The notes under the pieces were generated by a model that worked only from the letters and a program-made list of their open reading frames with translations, was not told where the DNA came from and did no database searches. Shown in pieces: positions 15,382-64,000 of a DNA stretch of 64,000 bases (its first letter is position 1; the number at the start of each line of letters is the position of its first letter). The position numbers and the translations under genes are program-made. Origin of the DNA: Polytrichum commune (Eukaryota > Streptophyta > Polytrichopsida > Polytrichales > Polytrichaceae); NCBI GenBank assembly GCA_950295325.1, contig OX485803.1:25976001-26040000 (forward strand), written 5' to 3'.

Positions 15382-15383
15382 CT

Positions 15384-15395
15384 TGGTATCAGAGC
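15384..15395 (+). other. primer-binding site, initiator tRNA-Met type
   Basis: TGGTATCAGAGC begins two bases after the 5' LTR. This 12-mer is the usual plant retrotransposon site complementary to the 3' end of initiator tRNA-Met. Confidence 0.9.
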
Positions 15396-16340: not shown

Positions 16341-16499
16341 CCGAATGTTAGACGATGGCATTGTGGGCAAGGCTAGAAGCCTTAAGCCAAGGCCAAATCT
16401 TTTGTACCTTGAGGCTCAATGAATGGAAGAAATGTCTCATGTGTTGACAAAGAGGCTACCACTCCTTCTTGAGCCCAAAATTCACAAGGAAGTTGGGGC

Positions 16500-20469: not shown

Positions 20470-20481
20470 GGTGGGGGTGAG
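20470..20481 (+). other. polypurine tract
   Basis: The purine-rich run GGTGGGGGTGAG, interrupted by two T residues, directly precedes the 3' LTR and is the expected plus-strand primer. Confidence 0.75.
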
Positions 20482-21454: not shown

Positions 21455-21468
21455 GTAGAGGGGGTTTC

Positions 21469-25600: not shown

Positions 25601-26906
25601 ATGCAAGGATGTGTCGTTCCAGCTCCGCTTGTGTGCTCAACAGGGTGTCTCCCTCCATAAGTTGCTTGATCGTAATTTGGCGTCTTTGTCCCTCATAGTG
25701 CTCAAATAACTCCTTTGTGCACCTATCTCCCACCCTTGCCCACTTGGAGAGTATGGCGCTCTCTTTAAATTGGAATTTTTGCTGCTGTACTTCGTGCAAC
25801 TTGGCTTGGGCATCACTTAGCCGATCCCGAGCTTCTTTGGATCCCCAGTTTCGCTGTAGTTCGTCTTCGGCTTCGATAATGTCCTCAAACTGTTCGAGGT
25901 AAGTAGCCTTCCAACGTTGTTTCTGCTGGCGAGTAAGTTCAGCCGATTTCTTTCTTATTGCGTGGTTGGCAGCCACGACCTTGGCGTTCCAGCTTGGTAA
26001 GGTCGGATCTTCCATGACTTCTCTCCATGTGGCTACTAATGCTGCTTTGCTTTCAGGATGTTTGAGGAGTCCTTTGTTAAAGAAAAATTGTTTGGCTTTT
26101 CGAGGGCCTGCATTGTTGAAGTGCAGAAGGACTCCTGAGTGGTCTGATATGTCAGGCACTTCCGGTAAGATTTCTGTGGTGCCTCCTGTGTTCGCCATTG
26201 GCGGGGGTATGTATATCCTGTCGATTCGGGATTGGACCATTGAGTCATCATTGTGTGCGTTACTCCAAGTGAATGCCTTGGTGGTTTTTCTCCGGAAAGC
26301 GCCTACATGGAATGCATCCCTTACTCCTAGCCTCACTAGGAGTCTGTTCCATGCCTCCATTTCCCGATTGCCAATGTTGGTCTTGCTGGTACCTCCTTGC
26401 TTGTCTCTAATGCTTTCTATGTTGTTGAAATCGCCAGCTAGTACCCATTCCGCCTCTGGGAGGGAGGTCTGGGCAATGTGATTCCATAGCATGGCTCTAG
26501 GGCCGGTGTCGCTAAATCCATATATGTTGATGATTCCCAATTGGAATCTCGGGCTGAGATTAAGGACGACATATTGTGCTCTTCCTGGGAAGAGGATGCC
26601 ATGGTGTGTGATTGTCAATGCTAGTTTTTCCGAGAGGATGATGCCCGTGCCCCCGGTGAATCGGCCCGTTTGGGCGGAGAATGATGTCTCGTTCCAAAGG
26701 CTAGAGCCCCCTCGAAACTCTATAAATCTGGTTTGCTTGAGGCTTGCTTCCTCGGGTAACTTCGTCTCTTGTAATAGTAGCACATCGGCTTTAGGAGTGG
26801 TGTTGTTGAAAATGTCTTGAATCTCTCTGCGCTTCCGTCTTCCGAAGAAGCCCTGACCCAGACCCCGGGTGTTCTGAGTCGCAATCGTGATTTCTTCGCC
26901 TTTCAT
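22539..26906 (-). pseudogene. LINE ORF2: endonuclease and reverse transcriptase
   Basis: ATG at 26904-26906 overlaps the ORF1 stop (ATGA). Residues 1-225 are an APE-like endonuclease (TQNTRGLG at the start, QETKLPEE, AGDFNNIES, SDHSGVLL). RT follows: YRPISLLNTLYKVVAKVYANR, SQTGFVPNRCILDN, LDFEKAYDRVNW, RQGCPLAPYLF, and the catalytic FADDTLLF at about residue 722. The frame is open for 1,243 codons to a TAG at 23175-23177. It then continues in the same frame for 211 more codons with a zf-RVT type block (CQLCVDQSRETLQHAFYDC), so the TAG is a point mutation, probably from CAG. Such proteins nick DNA and copy LINE RNA at the break. EN and RT motifs look intact; the broken C-terminus and ORF1 make the copy inactive. 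Confidence 0.9.
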
Positions 26907-29185
26907 GGAGATTTGCAGAGGGTTTCCGCGCTGGAGGTTGTTACCTCCGTGTTTGATGTCGCGGTGCGATGGTGTGTCGCTTGTAGGGGGGTGCTAGGAT
27001 GGTACTTCTCAATCATCTCCATCCATGGCGGCGTATGTTCAATGTGGTCAATGGTGTCTGCAGTGTGTGCTGTTATTGTTTTTCTGATTCCTGCCTCCAT
27101 TGACTGCCATTTGAAATTCTGCCCTTTTCTCGGTTTTACCTTGGCTTCGATTACTGCTACACTCGCAAAGAGTGTGCAGGTAAACTCCCCTTCCACATCT
27201 TCCTCCCAGCTGGCAAACCACCGCCCTTGCGTCCATTTCTGAAATGGGTTAGATAGGTTGTTATTGAAAATAAGTACCTTGTGCAGTGCTTGCGAGGTTT
27301 TGTTGACCACATGTTGCCTAGCTCTGGTGGATGTCCAAGGTATTCCCGCTAAGAGTTCTGCAATGTGAACAATCGATATTGCCGTGTGAGGTTGTGTCCT
27401 TCCGTTTACCAAGAATTTTGTGTGGTCTGTGAGTTGATTCTTGGCTAGGAGCGGAATGACTTGCAGGGTTTTGCGGGCTGACTGGGGTGTGTTTGGTATG
27501 CCGAGCTCTGTCCAAAAATCCTCCGCAAGACGTCCTGATCTGTACCCTTGGCGTGTGATTGGTGCTGAATCAGGCACTCTGGGAATGCAGGGTTTGGTTT
27601 TCGTTCTTCCCCTGTCAGTTTGCGCTCCTGGTGTGTGTGCGATGTCTTCATTAGGTGGTCTGGTTCGCCAGACGAAAGTTGGAGAGGGTGTTTTCACTTG
27701 CGGGGCGGGTGTGCTTTGGTTATTCTGCTGGGCAGGGGGACTTGTCAGTCCGCGATTTGGAGATTGAAGCTTGGGGAAGTTGATGTCATTGGGGAGTAGC
27801 GATGCCGGTACTTCTTCTGCTTGTCCCAGTGCATTCAGTTCCGTAGATTGCGACCTTTCCTCCGTGGTCTCTGGTGGTGGAATCTGGTCGTTGGGCTCCT
27901 CTGCCTCTACCGCGCCTACAGTGTCTTCGGGTAGGGGCGATGCCGGTGCTTCATCTGCAAGTTGTTGCGGCCTCTCTTCGTTATGTGGGTCTCGTGTCGT
28001 ATCTGATGGCGGATCCGGATTGTTTGGCTCTTTAATCTCTGCTGCACTCTTGGTGGGTAGGTCTTCAGGAGCTGCATTGGTTGGCGCATCGGTTGGCTCA
28101 GCAGATTGGATGGCTTCCTCTGGCTGCATGTGTGGTGGCTGGATGATCGGTGGCGACTCACCTGGTGCTACTTGCGGCCGAAAGTCTCCTCTTCTCGGTC
28201 GTTGTCGTCGCATTTCTCGCCATCTTCCCGGTGGTTCCCTCTTGGGACAGTGTCGCACTTGGTGGTCTCTTGACCGGCAGCGGCCGCATTGGTTGGGAAG
28301 ACCACTGAACTCCAATTCATATTCTGCCACCCCTTCCCCATCTAACCTAGGTATTACTATCATCTGTGGCAATTTGTTAAGGTCTTGCACCAGGAGGCGT
28401 ATGCACGGTCCGAAGAGTTTAGCTTTGTATGCTTCAGATGTATCTATCGATATCATTTGCCCTATTTGCTCCCCTATTGTGCGGAGGAATGTTTCCTCTC
28501 TTAGGACTTGACAAAGGTCGACTATTTGTACCCACACTGGGTAATCAAGTTTCTCTATGGCCTGCGGTGCTCTGGGGTTGAAATGCGGCCGCCAGCTGGA
28601 GAAGAGGATCGTTGCTGCTTCGCACGTCAACTCCGTCTGGTTGAGTGCATGGAGACGGCCTTCTGGGTGATCGAAGGTGACTTCGAACAGGTTGTTCGAT
28701 TTCAGTGACAGAAGTGAGAGGGAGGGATGGAGGGCTTCCTTAGCCCATGTCGTTAGGGTTTTGAGTCCGGGGTGTTTGCCCTGGACTCTTCCAAAAAGGG
28801 AGACTGCTGCTTTGCCTTCACAGCTGGCTCGCAGCTTACTGAGTAGCGCCTCTGGTACATTGATGTTGAGCTTGCGCTTGTGATTCTCCTCTCTGTCCGG
28901 CTCCTTAATTGGTGTATGCTCCTGGGTACTGTTGGTTTGTGTTGCTGGCGGCGTGGAAGTGTTAGTCTCAGATGAGTTCTATGACCTAGCTGCTGGCTCC
29001 GAAGGGCGTTGCTCTTCTACTTGCGCAGGTGGTCTACTACTCTGATTGTTATGCTTCTCGGGTGCGCGCTCCTCGGCATCGATTCGTCTCCAGATTTGTC
29101 AGTTTGTGGTCCGCGTAGTCTCCTGGCGGCGTGTTCCAGCTTGGGCGATCGTTCCTTGTTGCGCTTGTTCGTGAGCAGACGCCAT
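26903..29185 (-). pseudogene. LINE ORF1: DUF4283-like and CCHC zinc knuckle protein
   Basis: The best start is ATG at 29183-29185 (MASAHEQAQQG). The frame runs about 760 codons to a TGA at 26903-26905, interrupted by TGA at 29099-29101 and TAG at 28979-28981. The first 100 residues are polar and disordered. A DUF4283-like block follows (NLFEVTFDHPEGRLHALN, then SSWRPHFNPRAP, DYPVWVQI). At about residue 296 there is a CCHC knuckle (QCGRCRSRDHQVRHC), and after it a long Pro/Glu/Thr-rich tail. ORF1 proteins bind the LINE RNA. Both nonsense codons are explained by C to T changes. The stop overlaps the ORF2 start by four bases. Confidence 0.82.
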
Positions 29186-41857: not shown

Positions 41858-42185
41858 CACTAAATATTGTATTTAGTGTCACATGGTATTTTTTTTTGTC
41901 TTTGTGGTAACTTCTCTAATGTCGCTTCTCATGAATAAGTTTACAAGTACGATCATGGATGATTAGAACTTGGATGAGATTCATGCCAATTTATGAAACA
42001 AAGTTTGGTCAATTTTGCATATTAACATTTCTATAATGAATTATTGTTATGGATGATTGAAATTTGGATGAAAAACCACTTAGTAAATGACAATAATTGC
42101 AACATTGTAAAATTTGAATGCCCAATTTTGTATACAAAGCATGACAAATAATGTTAGGTTTACATGTAGTGTTGGTGACCAGGGT

Positions 42186-42280
42186 TGTCTATCGCGACGT
42201 CATGACGGTGTCGTGCCGTCATGTCAGGTCGTGTCGTGACGGACCCCTCCGTCACGACACAATAGGGTCCACGTAGGGTC
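42186..42280. repeat. left subterminal GTCGTGACGG inverted repeats of the hAT element
   Basis: Several overlapping copies of GTCGTGACGG, GACGTCATGACGG and the inverted CCGTCACGAC occur within 100 bp of the left end. One forms a perfect hairpin, GTGTCGTGACGGA with TCCGTCACGACAC. The right end (54700-54775) has the same motifs. These resemble subterminal transposase-binding repeats of hAT elements. Confidence 0.65.
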
Positions 42281-42447
42281 AACATAGGGGGAATGGACTA
42301 GGGTGGGTAAAATACTTACCTTCTTGCCAAGGTGGCGTCCTATGTGGCAGAAAACGCCGACGTGGATGTGCATATTTCCCTTGCCAAGTAAACCATTTTG
42401 CCATTGTGTTTAGGGTTCTGTTAAAATCAAAGTAGAAAAATATGACT

Positions 42448-43095
42448 AAGGAGGGTGTGGGGCGGACGGTGGGGCGGACGGGAGAGGGGGGTGGTGCGGA
42501 CGGCGGAGGGGGGTGGTGCGGACGGCGGAGGGGGGTGGAGAGGACGGACGGGGGGTGGTGCGGACGGGGGAGGGGGGTGGTGCGGACGGACGGGGGGTGG
42601 AGCGGACGGGGGAGGGGGGTGGTGCGGACGGACGGGGGGTGGAGCGGATGGGGGAGGGGGGTGGAGCGGACGGGGGTGGGGCGGACGGACGGGGGTGGAG
42701 CGGACGGGGGTGGGGCGGACGGGGGTGGGGCGGACGGACGGGGGTGGAGCGGACGGGGGTGGGGCGGACGGGGGTGGGGCGGACGGGGGTGGGGCGGACG
42801 GACGGGGGTGGAGCGGACGGGGGAGGGGGGTGGTGCGGACGGACGGGGGGTGGAGCGGATGGGGGAGGGGGGTGGAGCGGACGGGGGTGGGGCGGACGGA
42901 GGGGGGTGGAGCGGACGGGGGTGGGGCGGACGGACGGGGGTGGAGCGGACGGACGGGGGTGGAGCGGACGGGGGTGGGGGTTGAGCGGACGGGGGTGGGG
43001 CGGAAGGGGGTTGGGAACGGGGGGGAGAACGCTGGAGCGGACGGGGGAACGCGGGGGCGGACGGGGGAACGCGGGGGCGGACGGGGGGAACGCGG
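42448..43095 (+). repeat. G-rich GCGGACGGGGGTGGA array
   Basis: About 650 bp of imperfect 14-19 bp units built on GCGGACGGGGGTGG(A/G). G richness is on the plus strand and potential G-quadruplex tracts are abundant. All long ORFs through it, on both strands, are Pro/Arg/Gly low-complexity artefacts. Confidence 0.9.
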
Positions 43096-43495
43096 AGGGC
43101 TCCGTCCGCCCCAAGTTCCCTCACGTCCGCCCCACATTCCCCCGCCGTGCGTTCACGTTCCCACACGTTTCCTAACGTCCGCACCCGTTCCCTACCGCGT
43201 TCCCCCCAGTCCGCACCCGTTCCCTCCCGTCCGCGCCCGTTCCCCCCCAGTCCGCACCCGTTCCCTTCCCGTCCGCCCACGTTCCCTCCCGTCCGCCCCA
43301 CGTTCCCTCCCGTCCGCCCCATGTTCCCTCCCGTCCGCGCTACGTTCCCCTCCCGTCCGCCCACGTTCCCTCCCGTCCGCCCCACGTTCCCGTACGTTCC
43401 CTCCCGTCCGCGCTCCGTTCCCTTCCGTCCGCCCGAGTTCCCCTACGTCCGCCCCCTCGTTCCCACGTTCCCCATACGTCCTTTTCGTGCCCCAT
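43096..43495 (-). repeat. inverted C-rich CGTTCCCTCCCGTCCGCC array upstream of kinase-like gene
   Basis: It carries the same CGGACGGG core as the neighbouring array but on the other strand, with units like CGTTCCCTCCCGTCCGCCC of about 18-25 bp. The strand switch at about 43100 makes a large inverted-repeat arrangement. The array stops about 45-50 bp before a TATA box at 43541. Confidence 0.88.
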
Positions 43496-43540
43496 GTCAA
43501 ATCCGACCGGGATCCCATAATGATTGTGCTCCCCTTTGCC

Positions 43541-43549
43541 TATATAAAG
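43541..43549 (+). promoter_or_regulatory. TATA box of the kinase-like gene
   Basis: TATATAAAG lies just after the GC-rich array and 225 bp before the proposed ATG at 43774. It is followed by a C/T-rich leader (TCACTTTCCTCTCCTCCC), a normal plant core-promoter arrangement. Confidence 0.6.
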
Positions 43550-43773
43550 CCGTGGGGTTTTAGTTCCCCTCACTTTCCTCTCCTCCCACCACAAAGGGAC
43601 CCGAGACCTTGTTGCCGTCCCAAAGACAGCGGCACCGCGCGGGTCTCAGGGGGTTTGGGAGGGCAGGGCAAATTGTGGGGGAACCCTCGCAATTTTTTTT
43701 CCAGATTCACGCACTCATTTCTACATTCACTCACTCCTTTTTACATTCACTCACTCACGCGGTTTTTTTCACG

Positions 43774-45689
43774 ATGGAGGGGGAGGACATTGCTCCTTAC
43801 CAAGACGAGGATACGAGGCTGCACCGTGCTTGGCTCCAAAGCACTCCACTTGCGCATACTGGAGAGGGTACAGGAAGCGAGGCCGGAAGTGGAAGCACTG
43901 CAGCACGTCCCCCACGTCCAGTCCTTTTCGGTTTGACGAAGAGTTCTTTGCAGTTGGCCATTCAGGAGGCAACCAAACACGTGGAAGCCGTGGAACACGT
44001 GGGAGTCGGGGAAACAGTGGACATAGAGGGAGAACAGGAAGGGGACCAAGCTCAGGCAGTTCCACCGATATAAATACAGCCACTCATGGAGAGTCCGTGC
44101 CACCACGATCTCCGACACGGCGGACATCAAGACCGGAGAGCCCTGCACGTGATGTACCTCAGGGTTCGGAACATGGTGAAAGACGGGGACAAAAACGCCC
44201 AGCAATTTCGGAAGGGACGGAGGAGGGGTCCGGGGTTTCAGGTTCGCAATCGAGGAAAAGGAAAAATAGAGGCAAACACGACCCGCGGATCGATGAGGCT
44301 CGAAACCATTGTAGGGTCGTGCTATTGGAGTGGTTTAGAAATAACAACATGGTTTATTTGGAAAAAAAATACCTCAATGATGGTACAAAGGGGTTGGATT
44401 TGGTGAGGAACGATTTGATTCTTATTCTCACGGAAGCCACGGCTGGAGCGGAGTTTGAAGATGCTAGGGGCATGAGCGATTGGGGCACCTGGATTGAACA
44501 ACAAGCCGTGGAAGCAATCTACAATCCAACAATGGCATATGATGCTGTGCATCCTAGCGAGGGAAGTAGTAGTGGCAGGAAGTCCGAGCTGTACATGAAG
44601 CTAGAGAATTGGAAAAGAGGCGTAATAGCAGCAAAAGGAACATCCGCCCGCAACCTTCCCATTTTTATTGACAGGCAGATGGCAGACAACATTGCCACTC
44701 AGGGCCGGCAGGGTGTCATATGGTTGCCTAGGAATGCGGAGATCAAAGCCTTGGATAAGGAAATCTTCCAAGGGACCTTCGGAGTGGTGCGGAGAGTCGC
44801 AATTCATGGAGCATCATTCATGCCTAGCTGGATAGAGTGGGCTGGGAAGACCATGAAGGCCACGAATAGTTTGGAGAATCGAAAGGAACGTTCAGTTGAA
44901 GCATTGGCGTGTCCAGTAGATCATCCTGGGGTAATCAAGCTACAATACCTCAATATGAAAACATACGAATCCTATTCGATGTGGTGGAATGGAGGCTCCT
45001 TGAAAAACATGAGGATCTATGACTTCAGCGTTCCGGAAACCCACGAGCGCACAATCCTTCACGTGCCTGGGGCAGACTTTGAAGCACGGAAACAGTTGGT
45101 TGTATATCGAAGGCATCGAGCTTATTTGGCATGGGCTCTAATGTGCATTGTGGATGTAGTGCACAAGCATGACGTGTTGCACAATGACCTAAATCCCAAC
45201 AATGTCATGCTGCATTTCCCACAAGACCGTGAGAACACGGTTTACATTGGTGTGTGTGATTGGGGCATGGCATCCTGGGGAGGTGAAGACGCACCCTCCA
45301 ACTATGGAAAAGATTCAGTGGATGAGATGAACAAGCACAAAGCAAAATACAACTGTGCTGGTCCAAAATTATTCCATGTACGAGGGCAGCGTGGAACATC
45401 CACCTCTCCGGTGAGGATGGCTCGGAAACATAGGCACACGTTTCTATCGGAGTCCTTCTCAGTGGGTGCTTTGGCAAAGAAGATTTATGCCAGGGATGCG
45501 ACTTCCCCCTTGTTTCAGCTAAACAGTGATCCAAATGGCTTGAATATGCGGTTTGAGTTAGCATTGGATTCATTGACGAAGACCAATCCAGCGGAAAGGT
45601 CAACCATCACACACGTAGTGAACATTTTGAAGTCCCCTCCATACAACATGGTTAACCCGACAATGTGCTTCCGTGACACTGCAAAATAG
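43774..45689 (+). CDS. protein-kinase-like protein carried by the hAT element
   Basis: The main frame encodes about 100 disordered Arg/Gly/Ser-rich residues and then a protein-kinase-like fold. Visible motifs: glycine loop FQGTFGVVRRV, a lysine in AGKTMKA, catalytic loop VLHNDLNPNNVML (HND instead of HRD; Asp and Asn present), and a metal-binding CDWGMASW (DWG instead of DFG). An Asp-Asn loop plus DWG suggests a divergent but possibly active kinase. The kinase frame has no ATG near its start. A plausible model is ATG at 43774 (MEGEDIAPYQDED), an 86-nt intron 43868-43953 (GTACAG..TTTGCAG) that restores phase, and a stop at 45687-45689, about 609 residues. TATA box upstream and AATAAA downstream. 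I cannot name its family. Confidence 0.7.
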
Positions 45690-45752
45690 ATTTTTTTTGT
45701 TTTTTTTGCAACAATTTTGAATCATACCAATTTTGTAACCGTTGGAGATGTA

Positions 45753-45758
45753 AATAAA
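45753..45758 (+). terminator. AATAAA poly(A) signal after the kinase-like gene
   Basis: AATAAA lies 64 nt after the stop codon in a T-rich 3' region, supporting the gene's 3' end. Confidence 0.45.
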
Positions 45759-45759
45759 G

Positions 45760-46540
45760 CCATCATTTTTTCATACAAAACTTGTATATTGTATGAGGTT
45801 TATGGATCTTAGTGCAATGTTCATACTACTCCATGAGGCCTTTGCTCCATAATCGAGAAGAAGTCTATGAGAGGCTAACCAAGGTTCTCGCCTCTCATGA
45901 GGCCACATCCTTCTTTCACATCGTTGTTATCACATCCATGTGCTAAGTTCAAGTTAACTATAGTTGTTTGTGATATGTCTTGAAAAAATGCAGTTACCTA
46001 TATTTATTCTAATTTTGGTATGCCACAAAATGTAGTCAACTATAGTTATATCTAGTTAACTAAAGTTGAGCACAATATTGCAATAGTTATATCGGTTGTA
46101 CACGTGATCCAAAACATCTCTAAATGTTATCTTTCTTCTACTCCCCACATATTGCACACTATAAATGTTAAACGTGTTAACAGTTAACAAAATGGTACTC
46201 CCTTCTTTGTAAATCTGACTCTATAAACGTTAACGGATGAAATATAACCATAATATGGATGATAAAAACTACACATCCAGTTACATTGATTCATATTCAC
46301 TCGTGATTTGTAAACTTGATATTGAATAAAGTTTTGATTGGGTGTGCAATTTTATGAATGGTATTCTCTCACAAGGAATCTTCACAATTGCTTATATTTA
46401 TATTTATATAATTCACAATCACTTTTTTTTGGAAGTTTGGACATATTCTTGGCCGTCCAAGTTGAGAGGCCGTGCGATTGAGTGGCCCAACTTTGTTGAT
46501 AGTCCAAAGAAATGAACTGAAAATAGCCAAGAAAATATAG
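45760..46540. other. non-coding interior of the hAT element
   Basis: A/T-rich with repeated AGTTAACTATAGTT-like phrases (45955-46065). No gene. Confidence 0.35.
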
Positions 46541-47025
46541 TAAGGGTAGCCTTAGTTGGGCATAGTGTGAAGCCTCTAAAGGCCAAGCGCAAAGTCCAAA
46601 CCTTTGGCCATGAACTCCCACGGCCTCTCGGCTTGGATGGCCAAAGTGTGAAGCCTCCAAAGGCCAATCCCAAAGTCCAAACTCAAAGGAGCATGCCACT
46701 TTATTCCTTGCTCAAAATAACCCCTCCAATCTAACGGCCAAGATCTTGTCAATGATTGATTATTTTAATGAAAAAAAAGTTCGGCCTCTCGACGGAAGTT
46801 TGGGTTGAGCATTTTGCTATACCCAATCTTTGCTCGAGAGGCCGAACTCTTGGCGCCATAACTTCCTAAAAGTGTTGCCACCTAGGCTCTTTTGGAGGCC
46901 ACGTCCTTTGGACTTCGGCCTCTAGTGTGAAGGCCGAAAGGACGGACTTTGGGCATTTCAGCATTTTCATTGGTCCAAATGTTGAACCTCTCAAAGTTTG
47001 GCCATATTGTGAACCGGCCCTTATA
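46541..47025. repeat. MITE-like segment with internal repeats
   Basis: AGTGTGAAGCCTC(T/C)AAAGGCCAA occurs twice (46564 and 46648), each followed by an AAAGTCCAAAC block, with inverted counterparts (TTTGGACTTCGGCCTC) near 46910. The right edge reads TGTGAACCGGCCCTTA, like a PIF/Harbinger end; the left edge is uncertain (TAAGGG at about 46540). Confidence 0.4.
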
Positions 47026-47319
47026 TTTGCAATACATGTCTTATTTTTTTTTTGGCACAAATTGAAAATTCAAATTGAAAATACAACCAACCCAGCCGAA
47101 ACAGCGCAGCCTAAGTGGAAATCTAGAAATAATGCTCATTTGAGGCCTATCCTTCCAAGTAGGGACTAAGTTGCTACGGGTCACAATAAGACCTTTGACC
47201 CCCCAAATCAAATCAAATTTGTTAAGAATGTCATGGTAGACCACGTCCGGGGCTTTTTCCAAGTCCCTAAGCATCTGTTTCCATTCAATCCTCCCATACT
47301 CTGATTTGTAATACATGTC
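47026..47319 (-). mobile_element. 5'-truncated retroposed copy with poly(A) and target duplication
   Basis: On the minus strand a 264-bp body (47304 to 47041) ends in a poly(A) run (10-11 A, 47044-47054). It is flanked by near-identical 15-mers: TTTGCAATACATGTC (47026-47040) and TTTGTAATACATGTC (47305-47319). This is target-primed retroposition. The body is open in one frame (HDILNKFDLIWGVKGL and RLRCFGWVG), but the source gene or LINE tail is not recognised. Confidence 0.55.
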
Positions 47320-47439
47320 ATAAAAGCTAATGCAATTATTGTTTTGAAGTCTACCATCAAATGATATGTAAGATCGTATGTTCACTTGTGGTTGGTTCTT
47401 TTTATGTACCAGTTTAAGCCAATACTAAAATAAAATAAA

Positions 47440-47640
47440 TCTTATTCTATAAAATCTAATGACACTACCATACAAGTTAGTAGAGATGTTGTATATTTTT
47501 TAAAATTATTCTATATATTTACATAACTACAACTTATAATTTTGTGAAGAATAATACATAATACAACAAAGTTCAAATCAATACCTTTTTTGTGCACTCA
47601 CATATACTCATACGGATTTAGTATAGTGCACCCCCCCCAA
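47440..47640 (+). repeat. dispersed repeat, copy 2
   Basis: Same ordered blocks as 40307-40500: CACTACCATACAAG, TTTTGTGCACTCA and GTGCACCCCCCCC. Confidence 0.6.
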
Positions 47641-48072
47641 ATGATCACTAATGTGGGCCACATTAAATTTAAGCCCACACCAAATCCCTAGTTTAATATC
47701 AATGTGGACCATATTAATATGCTTTTCTAGAATGTTCTAATTTGTGTAAGGTGTTGGTAAGATATCTTTATGAAGCCTATAAGAACTCGGGGGATGCACT
47801 CTACATTATGTTTGAGAATCACGTGCGTTCATGACCCCTTCTAAAAACCCCAATGTATACCATAAGTTATATGTCTAAGTAGAGATTGTGCCAACTTGAA
47901 GTAGTCATCGCGATTTGCGAACGTTTAACTTTCGTTGTAGGCATCGTAAAAAAAAGCGGGTGGGTTCGTTGGAAAGCTGGGAACCTAAACCCTCAAACCA
48001 TGTATGGAAACACTTCTACATGAATGAGAGAACAAAACAACGGCACATATGTGGTAGCAATTTGGAATAACG

Positions 48073-48118
48073 TAGGGTTTAGGGTTTAGGGTTTAGGGGC
48101 TTAGGGTTTAGGGTTTAT
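48073..48118 (+). repeat. interstitial plant telomere repeat (TTTAGGG)n
   Basis: Five to six TTTAGGG units, one with an extra GC, end exactly where the 82-bp tandem repeat starts. Confidence 0.8.
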
Positions 48119-48410
48119 GAACCACAAAGGTTGAAGCACAAATATGTGAATTGTCGAATGAAAGGGCAAGGGGATGCGTGTGGGTTGTGAAACCATACGA
48201 ACCACTAAGGTTGAAGCTCAAATATGTGAATTGTTGAATGAAGATGGCATTCGGATGCCTAATATGCGTTGTGAAACCATATGGACCACAAAGGTTGAAG
48301 CACAAATATGTACTTTGTTGAATTAATATGACATTCGAATGCGTGTGGGTTGTGAAACTATACGAACCACTAAGGTTGAAGCTCAAATATGTGAATTGTT
48401 GAATGAAAGG
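48118..48410. repeat. 82-bp tandem repeat, 3.6 units
   Basis: Units begin GAACCAC(A/T)AAGGTTGAAG near 48118, 48198, 48280 and 48363. Each contains CAAATATGTGAATTGTTGAA and GGTTGTGAAACCATA. Direct contact with telomere-type repeats suggests a repair or replication-slippage product. Confidence 0.8.
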
Positions 48411-48663
48411 ACAACCCATCAAATATAGAAGCTTCAAAGAGGTTTCCAATGCGGGTGTCGGGGGACTTTTTCAAAAAGTGCAACTACCTTTTTTACTTCA
48501 CCAACTTTCTTTTTATTCCTATTGTGTTGTCTTTATCCTACCAACGAGAATTGGATCCTCTACATCTTGGATTACATCAAATATTGTATATTTCATAAAG
48601 TCCTTTGAGCTCAATATATAAGTAGAGCATTTAGACTCATACATATAACGAGGGTAGAGTATC

Positions 48664-49224
48664 ATGGATAGGATGGGAGAGAAGAGAGACATGTTTGAGG
48701 GTCTAGGATGTGATGAGGAGATAGAAAATTTAGGTGAACCCGATATTCCATTCAATCCATCAACCGAGCGTGAGAGAGATGAGAGATGTGCTAGGGATCG
48801 ATTTCGTGATGAGTATGTCATGACTCCCTTCTCACAATCTACACAAGCTTGGAGGATGAGGGCGGAGGAAGACCTACGACGATATGCGGACAACTTTGAG
48901 ATCGATGCGGTGGAAAATGACAACACACAATGCGTGGGTGGAGATCTAAATGATCTGATTGATTTGTGTGCGGATATTTTGGAGAAGCCCGGGGATGTGG
49001 ATGTGGAGGAGACTTCAATCGACATTGAAGATGTCAAGGTAGCGGGAGAATCTTCAAGGACTTTGCCTTTTCGTAAGAAGAGGAGAGGATTATCGCCTCA
49101 TCGGCTACCATTGAAGGAACGGATGAAAGACCGAACGATTAGCTATGTTGATTTACTTCGACCGAATCCTCTCCCAAAAATGGACCCTCGACGGAAGCCA
49201 CAAGCATCTACGAGGTTGCCATGA
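48664..49224 (+). CDS. unknown acidic protein, last exon or small gene
   Basis: ATG at 48664 opens 186 codons. The product is highly charged: acidic to about residue 140 (DEEIENLGEPD, DVDVEETSIDIEDV), then a basic stretch with KKRRGLSPHRLPLK that could be a nuclear localisation signal, ending KDRTISYVDLLRPNP. No domain is recognised. A possible AATAAA signal lies 97 nt downstream (49321-49326), which supports a real transcript end. It may be the final exon of a longer gene, since the sequence before the ATG is non-coding by eye and includes a pyrimidine-rich stretch that could be an intron. The acidic pattern is reminiscent of tails after hAT dimerisation domains, but this is weak. It lies inside the 12.6-kb hAT-like element between the kinase-like and RING genes, on the same strand. 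Confidence 0.45.
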   Translation: MDRMGEKRDMFEGLGCDEEIENLGEPDIPFNPSTERERDERCARDRFRDEYVMTPFSQSTQAWRMRAEEDLRRYADNFEIDAVENDNTQCVGGDLNDLIDLCADILEKPGDVDVEETSIDIEDVKVAGESSRTLPFRKKRRGLSPHRLPLKERMKDRTISYVDLLRPNPLPKMDPRRKPQASTRLP

Positions 49225-49689
49225 CGGAAGTCAAATTGACGGAATGAAGTGGAATATTAAATCGTGCATGGTTTGTTCATGTATGTGATTTATAAAGGGC
49301 ATTTGTACCGTCGTCGCAATAATAAAGTCATTACTTGTACATCGTTGTCTCCATAGGGGTGATAATTTGTTGGTCATCATACTACATTGGTTACTTTGTT
49401 GCTTGAGGGATCCTTCATTAGTTTTGTGTGGATAAGTACACCGGTAATGATATTTAGTGTCACATATATTATTTGCAAAGGGCCTAAGTTAGATGGGGTG
49501 CGGATGGGGGGACGCGGGAATGTGCAGTAGAAATATTATTGCATATTCATGTAGAGGACTTCATTACCTATCCATGGATACCAAGAAATCATTTTTTGGA
49601 CTTCATATGAATTTTTGAGAGCCAAAAAACCGAGACTATGTCCAAACTTCCAAAAAAAGTTAAAAAGTGCAGATTCAAAGGAACTCGGG

Positions 49690-50540
49690 AGCGGACGCAG
49701 GGGAACTCTAAAGCGGACGTAGGGGAACATGGGGCGGACTTATAGGAACGTTGGAGCGGACGTAAGGGAACATGGAGCGGACGGGGGGGAGCGGAAGGGG
49801 CGGGGGGCGGGTTGGAGCGGACGGGGGGAACGCGGGAGCGGACTGAGGGGAGCGGACGTAGGGAACGAGGGGGCGGACGTAGGGAACGAGGGAGCGGACT
49901 GAGGGGAGCGGACGTAGGGAACGAGGGGGCGGACGTTTGGGAACGGGTGCGGACGGAGGCGGGAACGGATGCGGACTGGGGGGAACGGGCGCGGACGGGA
50001 GGGAACGGGTGCGGACTGGGGGGAACGCGGGGAGCGGACGTAGGGGACGTTTGGGAACGGATGCGGACTGGGGGGAACGCGGGGGGCGGACGTAGGGGAA
50101 CGGGTGCGGACTGGGGGGGAACGGGCGCGGACGGGAGGGAACGGGTGCGGACTGGGGGGAACGCGGGGGGCGGACGTAGGGGAACGGGTGCGGACTGGCG
50201 GGAACGGGCGCGGACGGGAGGGAACAGGTGCGGACTGGGGGGAACGCGGGCGCGGACGTAGGGGAACGGGCGCGGACTGGTAGGGAACGGGTGCGGACTG
50301 GAGGGGAACGCGGGGGGCGGACGTAGGGGAACGAGTGCGGACGGGGGCGGGAACGGGCGCGGACTGGGAGGGGAACGGGCGCGGACTGGGAGGGGAACGG
50401 GCGCGGACTGGGAGGGGAACGGGCGCGGACTGGGAGGGGAACGGGCGCGGACTGGAAGGGGAACGGGCGCGGACTGGGAGGGAACGGGCGCGGACGGGAG
50501 GGAACGGGTGCGAACAGGGTGGGAACGGGGAGCGGATGGA
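49690..50540 (+). repeat. GC-rich GGGAACGGGCGCGGACTGGGA array upstream of the RING gene
   Basis: About 850 bp of units of 20-25 bp with a GCGGAC core: the left half uses GAGCGGACGTAGGGAACG, the right half GGGAACGGGCGCGGACTGGG. The array ends abruptly at a TATA box. Long ORFs on either strand are low-complexity artefacts. Confidence 0.9.
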
Positions 50541-50544
50541 GGGG

Positions 50545-50552
50545 TATATAAG
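50545..50552 (+). promoter_or_regulatory. TATA box of the coiled-coil/RING gene
   Basis: TATATAAG directly abuts the GC-rich array. A pyrimidine-rich start region (ACCCCACTCCACTCC) follows about 25 bp downstream, the expected spacing for transcription initiation. The ATG is at 51020; a 5' intron between is likely because A/T-rich sequence intervenes. Confidence 0.6.
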
Positions 50553-51019
50553 TGGAGGGGACCACTTACATACCCCACTCCACTCCTTGTGGGCGCCCGG
50601 ACGACCCTCCTCTACTACAGAGTGCGGGGTTTAGCAGGGTGCTCGGAGGAGTTAAGGATCCCTTTTTTGGGATCCTTTTATACTTTTTTTACTGACCTGT
50701 TCGTGGGTGTGATCCACGTGGACCCGTTCCCTTGTGACGTGGCATATTGCCTTTTTGGCATATTCCTTGTGACGCGCCCAGTCAACTGGCCTCTGCGTGA
50801 GCGCTGGTAGCGGGGTGCTCGAAGGGTGTGCTGAATTTTTGTACTTTAATTTTTAACGACATTTTTGAACTAATTCCACAGCAACACTATTTTAAAGTGT
50901 ATGCTTGGATGTTTTGTAGCACTATTATGAAGTGCAATTAGTAATTTAAAAATTAGAGTTCTAGATTAGAATTAGAAACTACAATTTGGGTGGATCCGGC
51001 AAGTGAAGGATTTCCAGAC

Positions 51020-53878
51020 ATGGCAAGTGGAGGATCTGGAGACATGGCAAGTGGGGGATCAGGTTGTCACAGATCACATGTACGCAAGGCCGCTGGGTTG
51101 GAGTGGGATGTTTATGATGACAACACCCAAAAAGCCAGGGCAGGTTGGGAGAATGTACCACAACCGTGGTCAGTGAAGACTGCAATGCAGTACGTGGGCT
51201 TCCCTCACTTTGATCGGTTGTGGCCAAGACCTTGTCACGAGCGACACTGCAAGGCCATCAGTGCGAATTATATGCAGCTTGATGACGTGGAGGCAAAATG
51301 GAGATTCCTAACGATACTTAGAAGTATCTCCAATTTGGATAGATGGCCCAAGAGTGCAATTCCAAAGTCGGTGGCGTGTATGATGTATGCGGAGCACGTG
51401 TTGCGAGTTAGGGTGGATTGGTCAAGTTTGGCTATCCTGCATAGTCAAAAATTTGGGGGTATTGGAATTGTATTCACTAAATGCACAGTTCCAGATATTC
51501 CATACACTCCCGTTCCGGAGTGGTTCAGGAGGAATCCTCAACTAGTGGACGAGCCTGGGGCCCCAATTCCAGAGGGTCGGGAACCAAAAAAGCCACGTAA
51601 TCGTAAACGACTAGCCAATGACGTGGAGATGGCCATCGAGGAGGCATTTGAGCATATGGATGAGGGCATGGAGGCAAATGTCGAGGTCAACAACCTGATC
51701 AACGACGTGGTTAACGAGGTCCTAGACGAGGTAAACCTTGGTGAACATGGAGCGGACCCGACGGAGAGCAGAATGGAGGAATTGCGTAAGCAACATGCGT
51801 TGGAAATTCGTGAGTATAAAACGATGATTTTCGAGTTGGAAAATCGAGTTGCAACACTTACGATGGGGGAGGCTAGCAGTTCAAGTAGTACACCAATTAA
51901 CCTTCAGTCTTTGGAAGCAGAGAAGGACGCAGCTTTACAGGAGGCCAAGATTGCAAAGTCACAAGCTCTGGAGGTATGTATGAGGAATGAAGTAATGCGA
52001 GGAAAGATGGAGGCTTTGCAAAAGGAGGTGGAGGACATGCAACAACAACTTCAAGTGGTCAATGAAGTGGTTGTTGATCACGAAGCCAAGATTGGCGGAC
52101 TGGAGGAGCAGAATGCAAGGTTGAAGAAATTTCTGTTGGATGCGATTGTGGAGCGCAAAAATATGAGGACAAGCACATTGCTTGCTATGGCCAAGGCTCA
52201 TCAATTTGAAGCTGAGTTTGAGAGCATCCAGAAAGAATGGAACCGCAATCAGAGAATGCGGAATATGATGCTCATGTCATGGCCAGAAGATGAGCAGATG
52301 TACCCTAGTAGGTGGGATAAGGATAATGAGTGGACATTGCCAAGCGGGAGCATCGATTGGCGTCAAGTGACCGACCCAGATCACCATTGGGATGTGACCC
52401 AAGTGCATGAATATCCATTCCGCATGAGGGGTGATGTCGCGCACCTCTCCATGAGGAGTGCCCGAAACACCATGGGCACAAGGGGGACCCCGGAGTGACA
52501 CCCGGGACTTGTGGCGCCATTGGTGAGAGGGCCCAAGTGATCCTAGTGTGGGTGAGGGCCCCGGGCGTTGGGAACGCCTCCCACCCACGGAGACTAGGAG
52601 GCATGAGGGTAAGGCCATGAGCTTTGCGTAGCTCATGGCGTGGTGATTCTAGAATGCTCAAGATCACCTCAATCGGAGGTGTGAGCTAGGAGTTATGGCC
52701 ATTTGAGTGGGGCGCTGTCCCGGGACAGCGCCCTGGTACAGCAGTGCCTGGGAGGGATTCCCGGGACTGCCAAGGTTCAAACAGGCATAACTTCCTCAAG
52801 ACTTGCTCGAATGGAGCAAGTGAGGAGTCCATCGGCATCTACGTGAAGCGTAGATGAGGATGGCGTGGTTGGTTGTTATGATCAGACATCATACCAGGAA
52901 GTTATGATGGTCTGAAGCTGCTGGGGCGTTCTAGGCCCAGCAGCTAAAGGAAAATGTCCACTTGGCCCCAACTCTTGGTAGAGAGACAAGAGGTTGGTTG
53001 ACGGTGGGGTAGGGGCCCCGCGTGAAGTCCTAGAGGCTTATATGGGTGAGGTGGTGTGGCCTCACCCACCCGAGGCCGAACGGCAAGGCCTCCATGGGCT
53101 TTGGCCTATTGTGAGGCCATAGTTGCCTAGTATGGTTCGGGTTGTTGTAGTGTTGCTCCGGCAACGCGATGATCAACATAGGAGTGGACTTCCATGGATG
53201 GAAGTCCACATTGGGGAAATGGGTTACCGATTAAGGGGTGAGTTCCGAAAGCAAAGTAGGAGGGTTGGTTCCCTCCTATGAACTATTGGTCCGGGGTTAG
53301 AGGAGCTAACCATTAGCATGGCGGTATGCGAAGGGTTAGCCACTCGTAACCTTTGCTAGAATTGAAAATTGGCAAGATGGTCAAGGGGGGGCCTAGCAAG
53401 GGTTGCGACAGGTGAGTTGTTATGGCCAAATCCACATACAATGGTCTTCGACGGAACCGCATGTGCGATTTGCCAATGTCCATTTGGCCCAGAGGGATGC
53501 TATCAAGTTGGATCATGTGGGGCCCAATTCCATCCACAATGTCTAATAGGGAATATGATCAAGAAACGCCAATGTCCTCATTGCAGATCACCCTTCCACC
53601 CTCGTTTGTACCTCCAATTTGGCCTTCGGGATTACATGCCTAACGACTGGGTATTAAAGCCATGGGACTTTCCCTTCGATCTTCAAGAGTTTGATGGGAA
53701 GAATGTTGAGTGGAGTTGGTTATACAATTGTGCCAAGGTTGAGCTATGGCACGAGAGTAGAGATGGCGACTGGACACGGAATGCACGTCAAATTTTGTAT
53801 GTTGCACCGGAGAGTCCTCATTTACAATGCCTACATGTAAGGGCACAATGCCTCCGCAATGTTCAAACAAGACCCTAA
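51020..53878 (+). pseudogene. coiled-coil RING-finger gene split by a solo LTR
   Basis: The first in-frame ATG is at 51020 (MASGGSGDMASGG). The N-terminal 170 residues form an unrecognised domain (AGLEWDVYDDN, WRFLTILRSISNLDRWP). A Pro/Lys-rich linker follows (EGREPKKPRNRKR), then a long coiled coil from about 240 to 430 (heptad-like Leu/Glu/Lys runs). At 52435 the frame enters a solo LTR and stops at 52496-52498. After the LTR the same frame resumes at 53411 with LLWP, then a RING: CAIC, GSCGAQFHPQCL, CPHC, then a conserved tail (WVLKPWDFPFDL), stop at 53876-53878. If the 976-bp LTR and one 5-bp duplicate are ignored, the two parts join in phase, about 630 residues. RING proteins usually are E3 ubiquitin ligases. 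A downstream product could start at the Met in HTMVFDG. Confidence 0.78.
52430..53415 (+). mobile_element. solo LTR of the 14.4-kb chromovirus family, TSD GGTGA
   Basis: A 976-bp LTR (52435-53410), with the same TGTCGCGC and TTGCGACA ends, is clearly homologous along its length to the LTRs at 14409 and 20482, differing at scattered positions. GGTGA flanks both sides (52430-52434 and 53411-53415), so it is an LTR-LTR recombination product of one insertion event. It lies within the RING gene. Confidence 0.93.
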
Positions 53879-54080
53879 TATGCGGGGGTACCATCCTACA
53901 TGTGGAAACATCACAAGCACCCCCTACAGGAGGTCTATAACCAAGGTGGGCCAACATTCTATTTCCTCGGTAAGATATGACGAACGGGCAAAACCTACAT
54001 TTAACCTGCCTTTGTGATTTACCGGGAACCATCCCCTTATCCTCGTACCAATGATCCCATGCATCATTTCGGCGTGGCAT
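53640..54080 (-). pseudogene. BED zinc-finger ORF, N-terminus of a hAT-type transposase
   Basis: ATG at 54078-54080 (minus strand) begins MPRRNDAWDHWYEDKG. A BED-like finger follows: VKCRFC, twelve residues, MLAHLGY, then CDVSTCRMVPPHIRVLF, matching the usual hAT pattern of CxxC, LxxHL and VxxCxxVPxxV. A splice-acceptor-like TTTGTATTTGCAG lies 14 nt upstream of the ATG. BED fingers bind the transposon ends. The supported part is about residues 1-75; farther on (below about 53850) the frame overlaps the 3' end of the convergent RING gene and may be meaningless. The catalytic RNase-H-like core and hATC domain are missing, so this is a remnant or a first exon whose partner exons were lost. Confidence 0.6.
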
Positions 54081-54284
54081 GACTTCAACAAAACCTGCAA
54101 ATACAAACAAGTTAGAGCAAGTAACTTTGATCGCATACTAGGTCCTGTTCAAGAGTGCCACAAGGGCAACCCTAATTCACAGTCACTAGATTGGACAAAG
54201 TATCCTCTGCATTCGGGTCTCACGCATTCAATCCTCACTCCTCAAAGGAGAATCAAAAGACTTGAGACACACTATGTCAGTGGA

Positions 54285-54555
54285 GGCGGACGGGGGAGGG
54301 GGGACGGGGGAGGGGGGACGGGGGAGGGGGGGGGGGGCGGACGGGGGAGGGCGGACGGGGGAGGGGGGGGGGGGGCGGATGGGGGAGCGGACGGACGGGG
54401 GGGCGGACGGGAGAGGGGGGAGCGGACGGGGTTGGGAACGGGAGCGGACGGGGGGGAACGGTGGCGAACGGGGATTGTGAACGGGAGCGGACGGGGGGGA
54501 ACGGGGGCGAACGGGGGTTGGGAACGGAGGCGGACGGGGGGGCGGACGGGCTCTA
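54285..54555 (+). repeat. right subterminal GGCGGACGGGGGAGGGG array
   Basis: About 270 bp of G-rich units with the same GCGGACGGGGG core as the arrays at 42448-43495 and 49690-50540, located 230 bp from the right end of the hAT element. Confidence 0.88.
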
Positions 54556-54864
54556 GTAAATTTTTCCCCACTTTACCTTTACTTTGCTGACATGTCATCA
54601 CACGTGGACATTGTAAATCCTACGTGTCAGAAATGGGTTAATGTAATTACACAAAAAAATCGGTAAAATTCAAGTCCGTCAGGATAAAGACAGCATCCGG
54701 CATAATGTCGTGATGGATACGTGTCGTGACGGCACGACATTATGTCAGGATTACCCTTCGTCACGACACAATAGACAACCCTGTTGGTGACACTACATGA
54801 ACGGTTTACGATTAATGTTGAGCAAGACAAATAGAATTGGTGACACTAAATACAATATTTAGTG

Positions 54865-61200: not shown

Positions 61201-63017
61201 GGCATGAAAACAATGACGATGGAGCTCGGATCAGCCTACAAAGTGAGGAATCAGAAAGCACAGTGAACGAGGGGGAAGAACGAAAGATCGATCGAGTGTC
61301 GCCGAAAGATGTCTCCGACTCTTTGAAAATTACATGCATGCAAAGTGCAGCCATGACTGAGCTCGGATCATCCTACAGGGTGAGGATTCGGCATGAGGGA
61401 GAAGTGAATCGAGTCTTGAATCTTCACATTTTAAACTCTTCCATCAACGCATGCAAGCGGTGGTGAAGGACGAGAGACGATGGTCTGAGATTCTGACCTA
61501 CTGCATCAGAACTGGTCCGGCAGGAGGAGCACTTAGGAGGACACGGGCTCTACACGATCATCTAAGAAAAAAGAAGAATCTTCACGATTTTCTCCGAAAC
61601 TTATGAGTAAAAAGGCTGTTCGTCTCGTCCTAAGCGAGTATCTGAAATTCTCGGAGAAGTGAGACTTGTTGGGAAAAGTGCTCGATAAACGCCGACTCAC
61701 CCCGTGGTTGGAAACTATCTGTAGCACCGTCTTTCATTAAGAAGCGTTAAATGTAAGCTACTTTCGGATCATTAGCATTTTTAAGGACTACAAATTCTCG
61801 AAAAGTTTCTAGATTTTCTTAGAATTGGAAATCAACACCTATGGGGTCTGGACGGCGACCCTGCTTTTTTTTACTGCTTATATTAAATTCGAAAACTGAC
61901 ATTTGAAAGTGAAAGCCTTTCCTAACTTAGGCACAGATCATATTGAAGGATTCTTTTCAATGCTCTTTGTAATCATGTTTCTCCTCTTTGTGAAAGAACG
62001 AATCATCAACTCATTAGAAGTATTAGTAGTGATTTAGAACAACTGTTCTAAAAGGGAGAGTTGCCAACTTAGGACACCGACTCGCCCCTTACTCTCGATT
62101 ACCACTTGAATACTACTCTTTAATGTCAAATGCATGCAAACGGAGGACATTATTAGGGATGATGAGAGACGATGAATGATCTGAGATTATTCTGACTGAC
62201 CTGCTGCATTGGAGCTGATCTGGCAGGAGGCCGCACTTCTTCTCGATGGCGTCTAGGATGGGTTTACCTCCAGGGTGAACAGCCCAGCCCACAGAGTCGT
62301 AATCCAGGTTGAAAGGCTCCAGGAGTTCACTCACAAAAGGCCCACTATGACCACCAACAAGTTTGGGCACATCCTTCTCAAGGTTAGCGTCCAGACCCGC
62401 CTCGGTGATAGAAGCAGTAATGCTCATGACCGAGTCAGGAATGACCATGGACTTAAGACCGTGTAACTCAAACAACGGAGCATTCTCCCCTTGCCCAGCG
62501 TCCTTAGGCTGCCCAATGACAACTGCAGACGCACCGTCGCCAAATATCGTCAACGTGACCACATTGTTCAAGCGAGTGAATCCCGGGTCGATATTCTGGG
62601 CTTGCGCGGAGTTAATTTCGACGCACACCACGAGCACCCTGTGCTTGGGGTCCGCAAGGGCGATCTCGGCGGCAGTGCGAAGACCAAGCATACCAGAGTG
62701 GCAACCTAGGAAGGAGATCGCTTGGTGCTTCACTGTCTTGGGCAGGTCCAGCAGCTTTATCAGGCGAGCGTCGATGTGTGGCTTTAGGAATCCTGTGGTG
62801 GAGTAGGCGAGCAGGTGAGTTATGTCTGCGCGGTTGCCTCCCCACTCTTCCAGTGCTTTGGTGGCCGCCACCTCGGCTATGCGCATGCCCTCCCCTGCGA
62901 ACAGCTTGAACCGATCGTTCAGTGATGGGGCACCGAACGTGTAGATGTTGGGGTGGTTGTCGTGGATGAATTCTGCCGTCACTGCTGTGTACTTCTTCTT
63001 GATCCCGGAGATCTTGC
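58232..63017 (-). CDS. type III polyketide synthase (chalcone synthase superfamily), exons 2 and 3
   Basis: The minus-strand gene joins exon 2 (63017-62201) to exon 3 (58400-58232, stop TAA). Exon 2 starts right after ATTAATG..GTGTAG with GC, so a T from exon 1 would complete a Cys codon: the conserved intron position of plant chalcone synthases. Exon 2 ends AGCAG before GTCAGT and exon 3 starts GAGTGT after TTGCAG, in phase. Catalytic residues are present: Cys in [10 protein letters not shown], His in [12 protein letters not shown], Asn in NMGNMGSAS; the GFGPG loop is in [11 protein letters not shown]. About 328 residues are visible of a usual 390-400. Such enzymes condense a starter CoA with malonyl-CoA units in the cytosol or ER surface to make chalcones, pyrones, resorcinols or sporopollenin precursors. 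GCHSG instead of GCFAG means the product is not predictable. Exon 1 is outside the window. Confidence 0.92.
59331..59548. mobile_element. CACTAAAT-family MITE, 218 bp
   Basis: Inverted ends match for about 36 bp with two mismatches (CACTAAATATTGTATTTAG, then GTCACTTGCTATTTGG). The first 20 bases are themselves a palindrome. Same family as the ends at 41858 and 54864. Located in the PKS intron. Confidence 0.7.
60241..60556. mobile_element. CACTAAA-ended MITE, 316 bp
   Basis: Ends CACTAAAAAAGATAATTAGT and the inverted CACTAAAAAGGATATTTAGT, with internal ATACACTAAAT repeats. Related to 56541 and 59331. In the PKS intron. Confidence 0.55.
61447..61535. repeat. duplicated copy of the exon 2/intron 2 border
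   Basis: It aligns in the same orientation with 62131-62235: CATGCAA(A/G)CGG, GAGAGACGATG, TCTGAGATT, CTGCAT, and GG(T/A)..CGGCAGGAGG. In the copy the splice-site neighbourhood is altered. Confidence 0.6.
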
Positions 63018-64000
63018 CTACACAAACATTTAATCAAAGGTCCACAACATTCAACCACCAACTTGTAAAATTCCTAGAACAAGACTTGCGCGAACCGGTG
63101 TTAACCCAAGCCTCCATTTATTGAGTTTTTGAAGAGGTTGAGTGACAACGGGTGGGAACCCTGCAACACATATTGGATGTGTTGAAGGTCTCTTTATGTA
63201 CTTCGGAATCTGACCTCGACCGACATGCTATCAGCTATGTCTATGACATCCAGAAACCGGAAAAAGAAACTAGATGAATGACTCCCTCCATGAGCTGATC
63301 TGGTAGGAGAGGTTGAGTCGTAACCCAATTTCTGGGACATGAACCAGTACCCTGTATTTATGAGGGGCTCATGAGTCGAAGCTCATCTACACCTGCCAGG
63401 TGAAGATGATCTCTTCCATGCTATGCTCTCCTCTCATCTCATCTCATCTCATCTCCTGTATACTTAGAAACAGACAGACCACAAGAACGGAGTACTACCG
63501 CCTACGACTATGACTATGATATCCTGAAGTTGAGAAGAAAGAATTTTCTTTTTGCAACACAGTCCTCGATGCTTGTGCTGAATATCCAACACTGCATCCA
63601 GCCATGAAGACCCAACCACACAAGGAAGGCTGGTGGGCCAAGGCAACAGAATTTGGACTCTTGCATGCACCTAAACTAACTTGGCATGAGAAGCTTGAAC
63701 TTGGGGATCGAACTTGAACGACCGAACTTGTTGATGGTGGTCAAGTTCCCCTGTTTCAGGCAGTACTAAGGGTCCAATTTCTTTTGACCTTGGCCCACCA
63801 ACCCAAAGTTTTGTGCAAGGGCATGCAGAGTAGACACGGACCCCAAAGCTCCACAGAGATGACTCTCGTCGTAAGAAAACGAAAAACAACGAAATGCTTG
63901 AAAAAGTCCCTGTCATGTGACGTAGTTATTCGAGAATATTACAGAAAATATTCTATATACAGAGAAACAGTGGACTCAATCACTAAACATGCAGGTTACC
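63018..64000 (-). other. intron 1 of the PKS gene (to window end)
   Basis: No first exon with a chalcone-synthase-like N-terminus was found on the minus strand here, so intron 1 is at least 0.98 kb and the gene start lies beyond the window. An (ATCTC)n microsatellite is at 63431-63455. Confidence 0.6.

Follow-up and report, generated by a model that had tools for sequence, protein, structure and literature searches.

The stretch analyzed here, 64,000 nucleotides of Polytrichum commune DNA from contig OX485803.1 and called the window in the following, contains between positions 42172 and 54791 a DNA transposon carrying a kinase gene, a coiled-coil-RING gene and the remnant of a hAT transposase gene. 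This element is non-autonomous and derives by internal deletion from a four-gene hAT transposon of 15-16 kb. It begins and ends with the 13-bp terminal inverted repeat CAGGGTTGTCTAT (42180-42192 on the plus strand and 54771-54783 on the minus strand) and is flanked by the 8-bp target-site duplication TTGGTGAC (42172-42179 and 54784-54791). Both pairs are exact, as stated in the original prediction, which had been made from the letters of the window. When up to two mismatches were allowed, CAGGGTTGTCTAT matched the window at just two positions, both exact and both identical with the element ends; since this number is at the chance level (1.84 expected), the count alone is no proof. Near the ends lie two palindromes, which had been described as matching hairpins. 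The left one (about 42232-42259) has a perfect 12-bp stem, TGTCGTGACGGA, with a DNA fold z of -4.8, and the right one (about 54721-54769) has GTGTCGTGACG arms forming an 11-bp stem round a long loop (z -2.3). The match therefore holds for the arm sequence and less so for the shape.

An empty site, which had been suggested as a check, was found in the same window. The flanks of the element, joined with a single copy of the 8 bp, aligned across the junction to the minus strand of positions 4867-5014, at 79% over a length of 149 columns (E 2e-28). The alignment score was 144, and none of 200 single-base shuffles exceeded 33. The target of the insertion was a dispersed repeat, and the sequence at 4867-5014 is an unoccupied paralogue of it.

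The kinase gene is located at 43774-45689 on the plus strand, downstream of a TATA-like box (43541-43547, plus strand). For the kinase-like frame 43548-45689, the protein collection contained 61 homologues, the best of them with 88% identity over 98%. Compared with the homologues P0001 and P0002, the window kinase changes frame once near 43911-43929 and is thus broken, whereas the kinase has a length of 635-638 amino acids in other copies. The predicted structure was of good quality in the kinase domain, and each of the 50 Foldseek matches listed was a kinase (best E 5e-9). Together with this fold, the kinase has the catalytic motifs of protein kinases (HND, DWG and the lysine). Among the 61 homologues, fragments included, GKxxK was found in 57, CDWG in 47 and H.D in 45. 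One further protein of the collection, P0004, joins the C-terminal tail of a transposase in frame with the kinase body; this fusion may have arisen by a deletion in a copy with an inverted kinase gene.

The coiled-coil-RING gene is split by a solo long terminal repeat (LTR). The first part of the gene (51020-52434, plus strand) is 92% identical to the intact homologue P0062 (769 amino acids), and the second part with the RING finger (53411-53806, plus strand) is 96% identical to the same protein. The solo LTR occupies 52430-53415 including its duplication (LTR 52435-53410), with the 5-bp duplication GGTGA on each side, and is 96% identical to two other LTRs of the window at 14407-15381 and 20474-21455. 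Because P0062 matches both parts, what had been taken for a RING gene and a separate unknown gene is one gene. The cargo proposed in the original prediction was thus right for the kinase and the RING gene, and the third gene dissolved into the second.

Two further parts of the element had been overlooked, a conserved open reading frame (ORF) of 186 amino acids without a Pfam match (48664-49224, plus strand) and, at the right end, the minus-strand remnant of a transposase gene. The remnant (53798-54086) corresponds to the N-terminal, BED-like part of a hAT transposase. Its stretch 54086-53802 matched five proteins, three of which are hAT transposases of 961-1,027 amino acids with DUF659 and Dimer_Tnp_hAT domains. 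The zf-BED domain itself reached an E of 0.041 in the window frame, which is below the cut-off, and it was not listed for a full transposase at E up to 0.5.

Three GC-rich tandem arrays, whose units are related to one another, precede the kinase, RING and transposase genes. The first (42450-43480), composed of GCGGAC and GGGAACG units, lies upstream of the kinase gene and is oriented in plus direction up to about 43100 and inverted beyond. The second (49680-50545, plus strand) lies upstream of the coiled-coil-RING gene and has a TATA-like box at 50545, and the third (54285-54550, plus strand) is situated between the transposase start and the right end. The GCGGACG sites of the window are concentrated in the element, with 59 of 62 sites on the plus strand and 13 of 14 on the minus strand located inside it.

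Other copies of the element in the genome

The genome searched for further copies comprised 407.8 Mb in 64 contigs, seven of which account for 406 Mb. An exact 29-bp left end occurred 215 times (108 forward, 107 reverse), compared to none for the reversed control. From 603 left and 595 right end candidates, the best 40 each were scored (99-100% identity for left and 97-100% for right ends). A right end on the same strand was found within 32 kb for 24 of the 40 left ends, compared to a random mean of 0.06 pairs. The pairs spanned 1.0 to 31.7 kb, and ten of them had a length of 15.0-16.3 kb. These ten copies (E01-E10) were selected on size, not on content. All ten shared one set of four genes, constant in order and orientation, namely kinase (+), 186-aa ORF (+), coiled-coil-RING (+) and transposase (-). 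The proposal of a true mobile unit whose ends enclose kinase and RING genes was thus confirmed, both ends and the genes being present in each of these ten copies.

The 13-bp terminal repeats were exact in the window copy, in all ten full-size copies and in both of two short copies, and the 8-bp duplication was perfect in the window copy, in nine of the ten full-size copies and in both short ones; E01 has none. The short copies (1,029 and 1,077 bp) consist of just the two ends and the outer arrays and carry no genes. The first 110 nt were identical across the ten full-size copies. The arrays occupied the same three places in E06, E09 and E10, and TATA-like boxes recurred there before the kinase and the RING gene. 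The longest open frames were 638 amino acids for the kinase, 186 for the ORF, 767 for the RING protein and 1,065 for the transposase. Some genes are broken in full-size copies: the transposase of E03 is without a stretch, and several frames have stops or shifts. The 186-aa ORF, although matched in all ten copies, is cut in E02, and in E06, E07 and E10 it is either split or shifted. The coiled-coil-RING frame is open in E02 (757 amino acids). In E10, kinase (635), RING (767) and transposase (1,065) are all open, and the 186-aa ORF shifts frame near its end. The ten copies and the window copy differed per gene by 0.1-1.6% from the majority, with the exception of a 45-codon piece at 2.2%. We read this low divergence as a recent, star-like burst; the four-gene element was amplified recently in this plant genome. 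Three kinase/RING copies (C1:21869206, C1:21920621 and C1:21954447) share the same stops, have near-equal scores and lie about 34-51 kb apart, and they perhaps go back to a segmental duplication that included the element and its surroundings.

The full transposase, encoded on the minus strand at the right end of E10, contains DUF659 (E 3e-35) and the hAT dimerization domain Dimer_Tnp_hAT (E 9e-11), both above the cut-off. Its match to Hermes in the PDB was weak (E 0.5). The transposase sequences contain the stretches CDGWDN, CTDNAP and CERNWS, which may correspond to the catalytic D, D, E triad.

Compared with E09 and E10, the window copy is collinear apart from the solo LTR, differences in array length and a 4.08-kb deletion. 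The junction of this deletion, with 9 bp of microhomology, is located at 53798-53806. The deletion removed most of the transposase gene, of which the N-terminal part is retained, as well as the C-terminal end of the RING protein, and it fused the RING gene to the transposase start. The window copy is hence Ds-like and derived from the four-gene element. The view that the element carries no transposase by nature did not hold, as the full-size element encodes a complete hAT transposase. The window copy would have been moved in trans by the transposase of full copies, as in Ac/Ds. Two further sequences were noted inside the element: a short run of plant-telomere-like TTTAGGG units at 48073-48117, followed by an 84-bp tandem repeat, and an inverted repeat in an intergenic stretch (46778-46851), possibly an old nested miniature inverted-repeat transposable element.

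Elsewhere in the window, an LTR element at 14407-21455 carries the two LTRs resembling the solo LTR and has coding remains between them at 18201-18692. It is adjoined by long frames that by eye resemble a long interspersed nuclear element with endonuclease and reverse transcriptase (21469-28978, minus strand). A relic at 1602-1847 (plus strand), distantly related to the RING-finger stretch (33-39% identity, best E about 1e-12), has the usual CGH..H..C pattern and represents a further, older lineage of the RING gene in this genome. The window also contains a 217-bp tandem repeat with palindromic TTTACGGACGCGCGTCCGTAAA cores (7478-8200) and a gene for a chalcone-synthase-like type III polyketide synthase (62113-63033, minus strand; best E 4e-51 among solved structures), which is indicative of a plant host.

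Selection and linkage of the kinase, RING and transposase genes

The ratio of non-synonymous to synonymous substitution rates (dN/dS) was determined for E10 against diverged relatives in the same genome. For the RING gene it was 0.50, 0.47, 0.55 and 0.55 against four relatives with 84-85% DNA identity and three to nine stops each, for the kinase gene 0.52, 0.51 and 0.51 against three relatives with about 89% identity, two of them stop-free, and for the transposase gene 0.44 and 0.47 against two relatives with 94% identity. The chi2 values versus neutrality (one degree of freedom) were 28 and 20 for the two RING comparisons tested, 16-18 for the three kinase comparisons, and 27 and 23 for the transposase. 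At the level of codon substitutions, the predicted kinase and RING genes thus show purifying selection about as strong as that on the transposase gene. As the copies also decayed after insertion, the past constraint was probably stronger. With ratios near 0.5, like that of the transposase, kinase and RING look like working genes of the element and not like chance cargo.

Linkage of the two genes was analyzed with 56 scored RING loci (of 261 candidates) and 69 scored kinase loci (of 267 candidates). A scored kinase locus was present within 25 kb of 41 of the 56 RING loci, compared to a random mean of 0.52 and a highest value of 4 in 2,000 trials. At these 41 loci, the nearest kinase was located upstream in the same direction in 28 cases, upstream in opposite direction in 12 and downstream in one. 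The kinase gene has thus been retained in spite of inversion or relocation. No internal stop was present in 41 of the 69 kinase matches.

Two diverged loci were read more widely. In these, the transposase gene adjoins the RING gene, an array precedes the transposase gene, and a kinase match lies beyond. In the diverged relatives L038 and L039, no kinase was found at the position it has in the subfamily of the window; L038 also contains a left end belonging to another copy, one of the same kind as the window element. The genome search placed a kinase match on the far side of the transposase gene, 8.6 kb (L033) and about 11 kb (L031) from the RING gene, and at L031 another kinase lies upstream at 10 kb, slightly closer.

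Homologues of the kinase, RING and transposase genes were present also in public contigs of other sources. Equal contig sizes had been considered as a sign of linkage there, with four coincidences among the longer contigs (22 kinase, 15 RING and three transposase contigs), and this approach was superseded by the direct copies. No relatives were found in scans of viral contigs with the kinase query, the transposase alignment or P0062, nor in scans of bacterial and archaeal contigs with the kinase query.

Possible function of the kinase and RING genes

That these genes are chance neighbours between two unrelated hAT-like ends is refuted by the empty site, the paired ends (24 of 40 left ends), the perfect duplications in nine of ten full-size copies and the gene set, which was the same in all ten. 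We lean slightly towards a function in which the kinase and RING proteins jointly set both the activity of the transposase and the silencing by the host, with the arrays as common cis sites. The RING protein, oligomeric via its long coiled coil, would mark a transposase-bound or chromatin protein for removal, the kinase would phosphorylate the transposase or the target of the RING protein, and the arrays would focus both proteins on the promoters and ends of the element. The weight between an action on the transposase and one on host silencing is about even, and the idea of the original prediction, that the module regulates its host or its own movement, is plausible. We put forward more tentatively that a plant hAT lineage developed from a one-gene transposon into a self-regulating four-gene element, in which the kinase and a ubiquitin-type RING protein would act as a signalling pair, switching the transposase and lifting silencing via the array sites at each promoter. 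This role would be like that of VANC proteins but based on phosphorylation and ubiquitination.

Several observations weigh against such a function. For the kinase model the Foldseek root-mean-square deviation was 7-12 Å, so that the class of the kinase cannot be named, and the Pfam Pkinase match of the window protein (E 5e-6) was below the curated cut-off. The RING finger matched zf-RING_2 with an E of 7e-6, just below the curated cut-off, and the RING of RNF38 with 6e-4. In seven of the eight family members readable at the RING loop (of 28), one usual zinc-ligand position, of the eight in RING-H2 fingers, has no histidine, P0073 being the one with this residue. This makes ligase activity uncertain, and the RING protein may be a scaffold without such activity. 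The structure model of the coiled-coil-RING protein was poor (pLDDT 45) and too weak for use. Within the burst, dN/dS from singletons was 0.6-0.8 with few shared changes, and the eight shared changes of the transposase comprised seven non-synonymous and one synonymous; as a selection test this comparison was uninformative and was replaced by that with the diverged relatives. A closer copy with an inverted kinase gene gave a dN/dS of 0.73, which was not significant. A scored partner within 25 kb was absent at 15 of 56 RING and 27 of 69 kinase loci, with part of the candidates scored. The fetched stretches of the diverged relatives contained no matching end, and that their kinase, RING and transposase genes form one element is inferred from closeness. 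The arrays, finally, are candidate protein-binding sites by analogy only.

Besides the joint function favored above, three further explanations were considered. An action on the transposase alone, in its timing, dosage, nuclear entry or turnover, for example by limiting overproduction, and not on host silencing, is possible but falls well short of probable. The constraint on kinase and RING, similar to that on the transposase, agrees with it, and the long C-terminal tail of the transposase, by eye acidic and serine-rich, is a plausible kinase substrate. However, a DNA-targeted or expression role agrees equally well with the presence of arrays upstream of each of the three genes. Plant signalling makes wide use of kinases and RING ligases, and both genes might instead serve the host as useful cargo spread by the element. 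We consider this improbable, because in full copies they sit together with the transposase gene and because, once inserted, they decay just as its other parts do; the presence of a scored RING locus within 25 kb of 42 of the 69 kinase loci bears on the question of a separate host copy.

It is likewise improbable, and a shade more so, that a host kinase and a host RING gene were captured once and are carried without benefit, as in Pack-type elements. Plant DNA transposons are well known for gene capture (PMC13317346, in its available part), but unneeded cargo fits poorly with a dN/dS of about 0.5 against diverged relatives, close to the transposase value, with the retention of both genes in all ten full copies, with a kinase gene inverted yet retained at 12 of the 41 paired RING loci, and with homologues that are still long at 30-45% identity. 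A recent high-copy hAT element with selected kinase and RING genes would make phosphorylation, and perhaps ubiquitination, part of managing an element or its host. The proposal is directly testable, as one genome offers copies with open kinase, RING and transposase genes, gene-less 1-kb copies and an empty site.

Comparison with known systems

hAT elements, usually of a few kb, are the textbook example of cut-and-paste transposons with one gene. The window family resembles them, and Ac/Ds in particular, in the 8-bp duplication, the short terminal repeats beginning with CAGGG and a transposase with DUF659, Dimer_Tnp_hAT and a putative BED-like start. Internally deleted copies such as the window element are known from Ac/Ds as well. 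The family differs from them in its size of 15-16 kb, its four genes and its three GC-rich arrays.

Ulp1 belongs to the ubiquitin-like pathway. An Ulp1 protease domain is carried by the KIU-type VANDALs (Kaonashi-Ulp1), Mutator-like transposons of Arabidopsis, according to the available part of PMC13317346, and the VANC proteins have their site of action in dense tandem motifs of the non-coding VANDAL DNA, as described in the accessible text of PMC5735166. As far as these texts go, the VANDALs share with the window family accessory genes besides the transposase and tandem short motifs in non-coding element DNA, which in the VANDALs are read by an element protein. In contrast to the VANDALs, with their Mutator-type transposase and its duplication, the window family has a hAT transposase and an 8-bp duplication. 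Neither a kinase nor a RING protein is mentioned in the available portions of those papers, and anti-silencing, shown there, is conjectural here.

Alpha-kinases form a different kinase class. In fungi, the TET+ families of IS3EU contain an alpha-kinase gene oriented opposite to the transposase gene, and many DNA transposons including hAT7 carry genes for TET/JBP dioxygenases, as stated in the accessible part of PMC12730594. The likeness, as far as that text reaches, lies in the additional enzyme genes on DNA transposons, hAT elements among them; the TET/JBP elements differ in being fungal, in the 7-bp duplications of hAT7 and in that the available text of PMC12730594 names no RING gene.

Pack-TYPE elements contain captured host sequence and no transposase. 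Like them, the window family has genes between the terminal repeats of a DNA transposon (PMC13317346, available part). Unlike their fragments without constraint, its genes are full-length, have a dN/dS of about 0.5 and lie alongside a transposase gene. A literature search by title and abstract opening, outside subscription papers and most preprints, found no hAT element with kinase and RING genes. DNA transposons with accessory genes have been described before; within the scope of this search, a hAT transposon with a kinase and a coiled-coil-RING gene under selection appears to be new.

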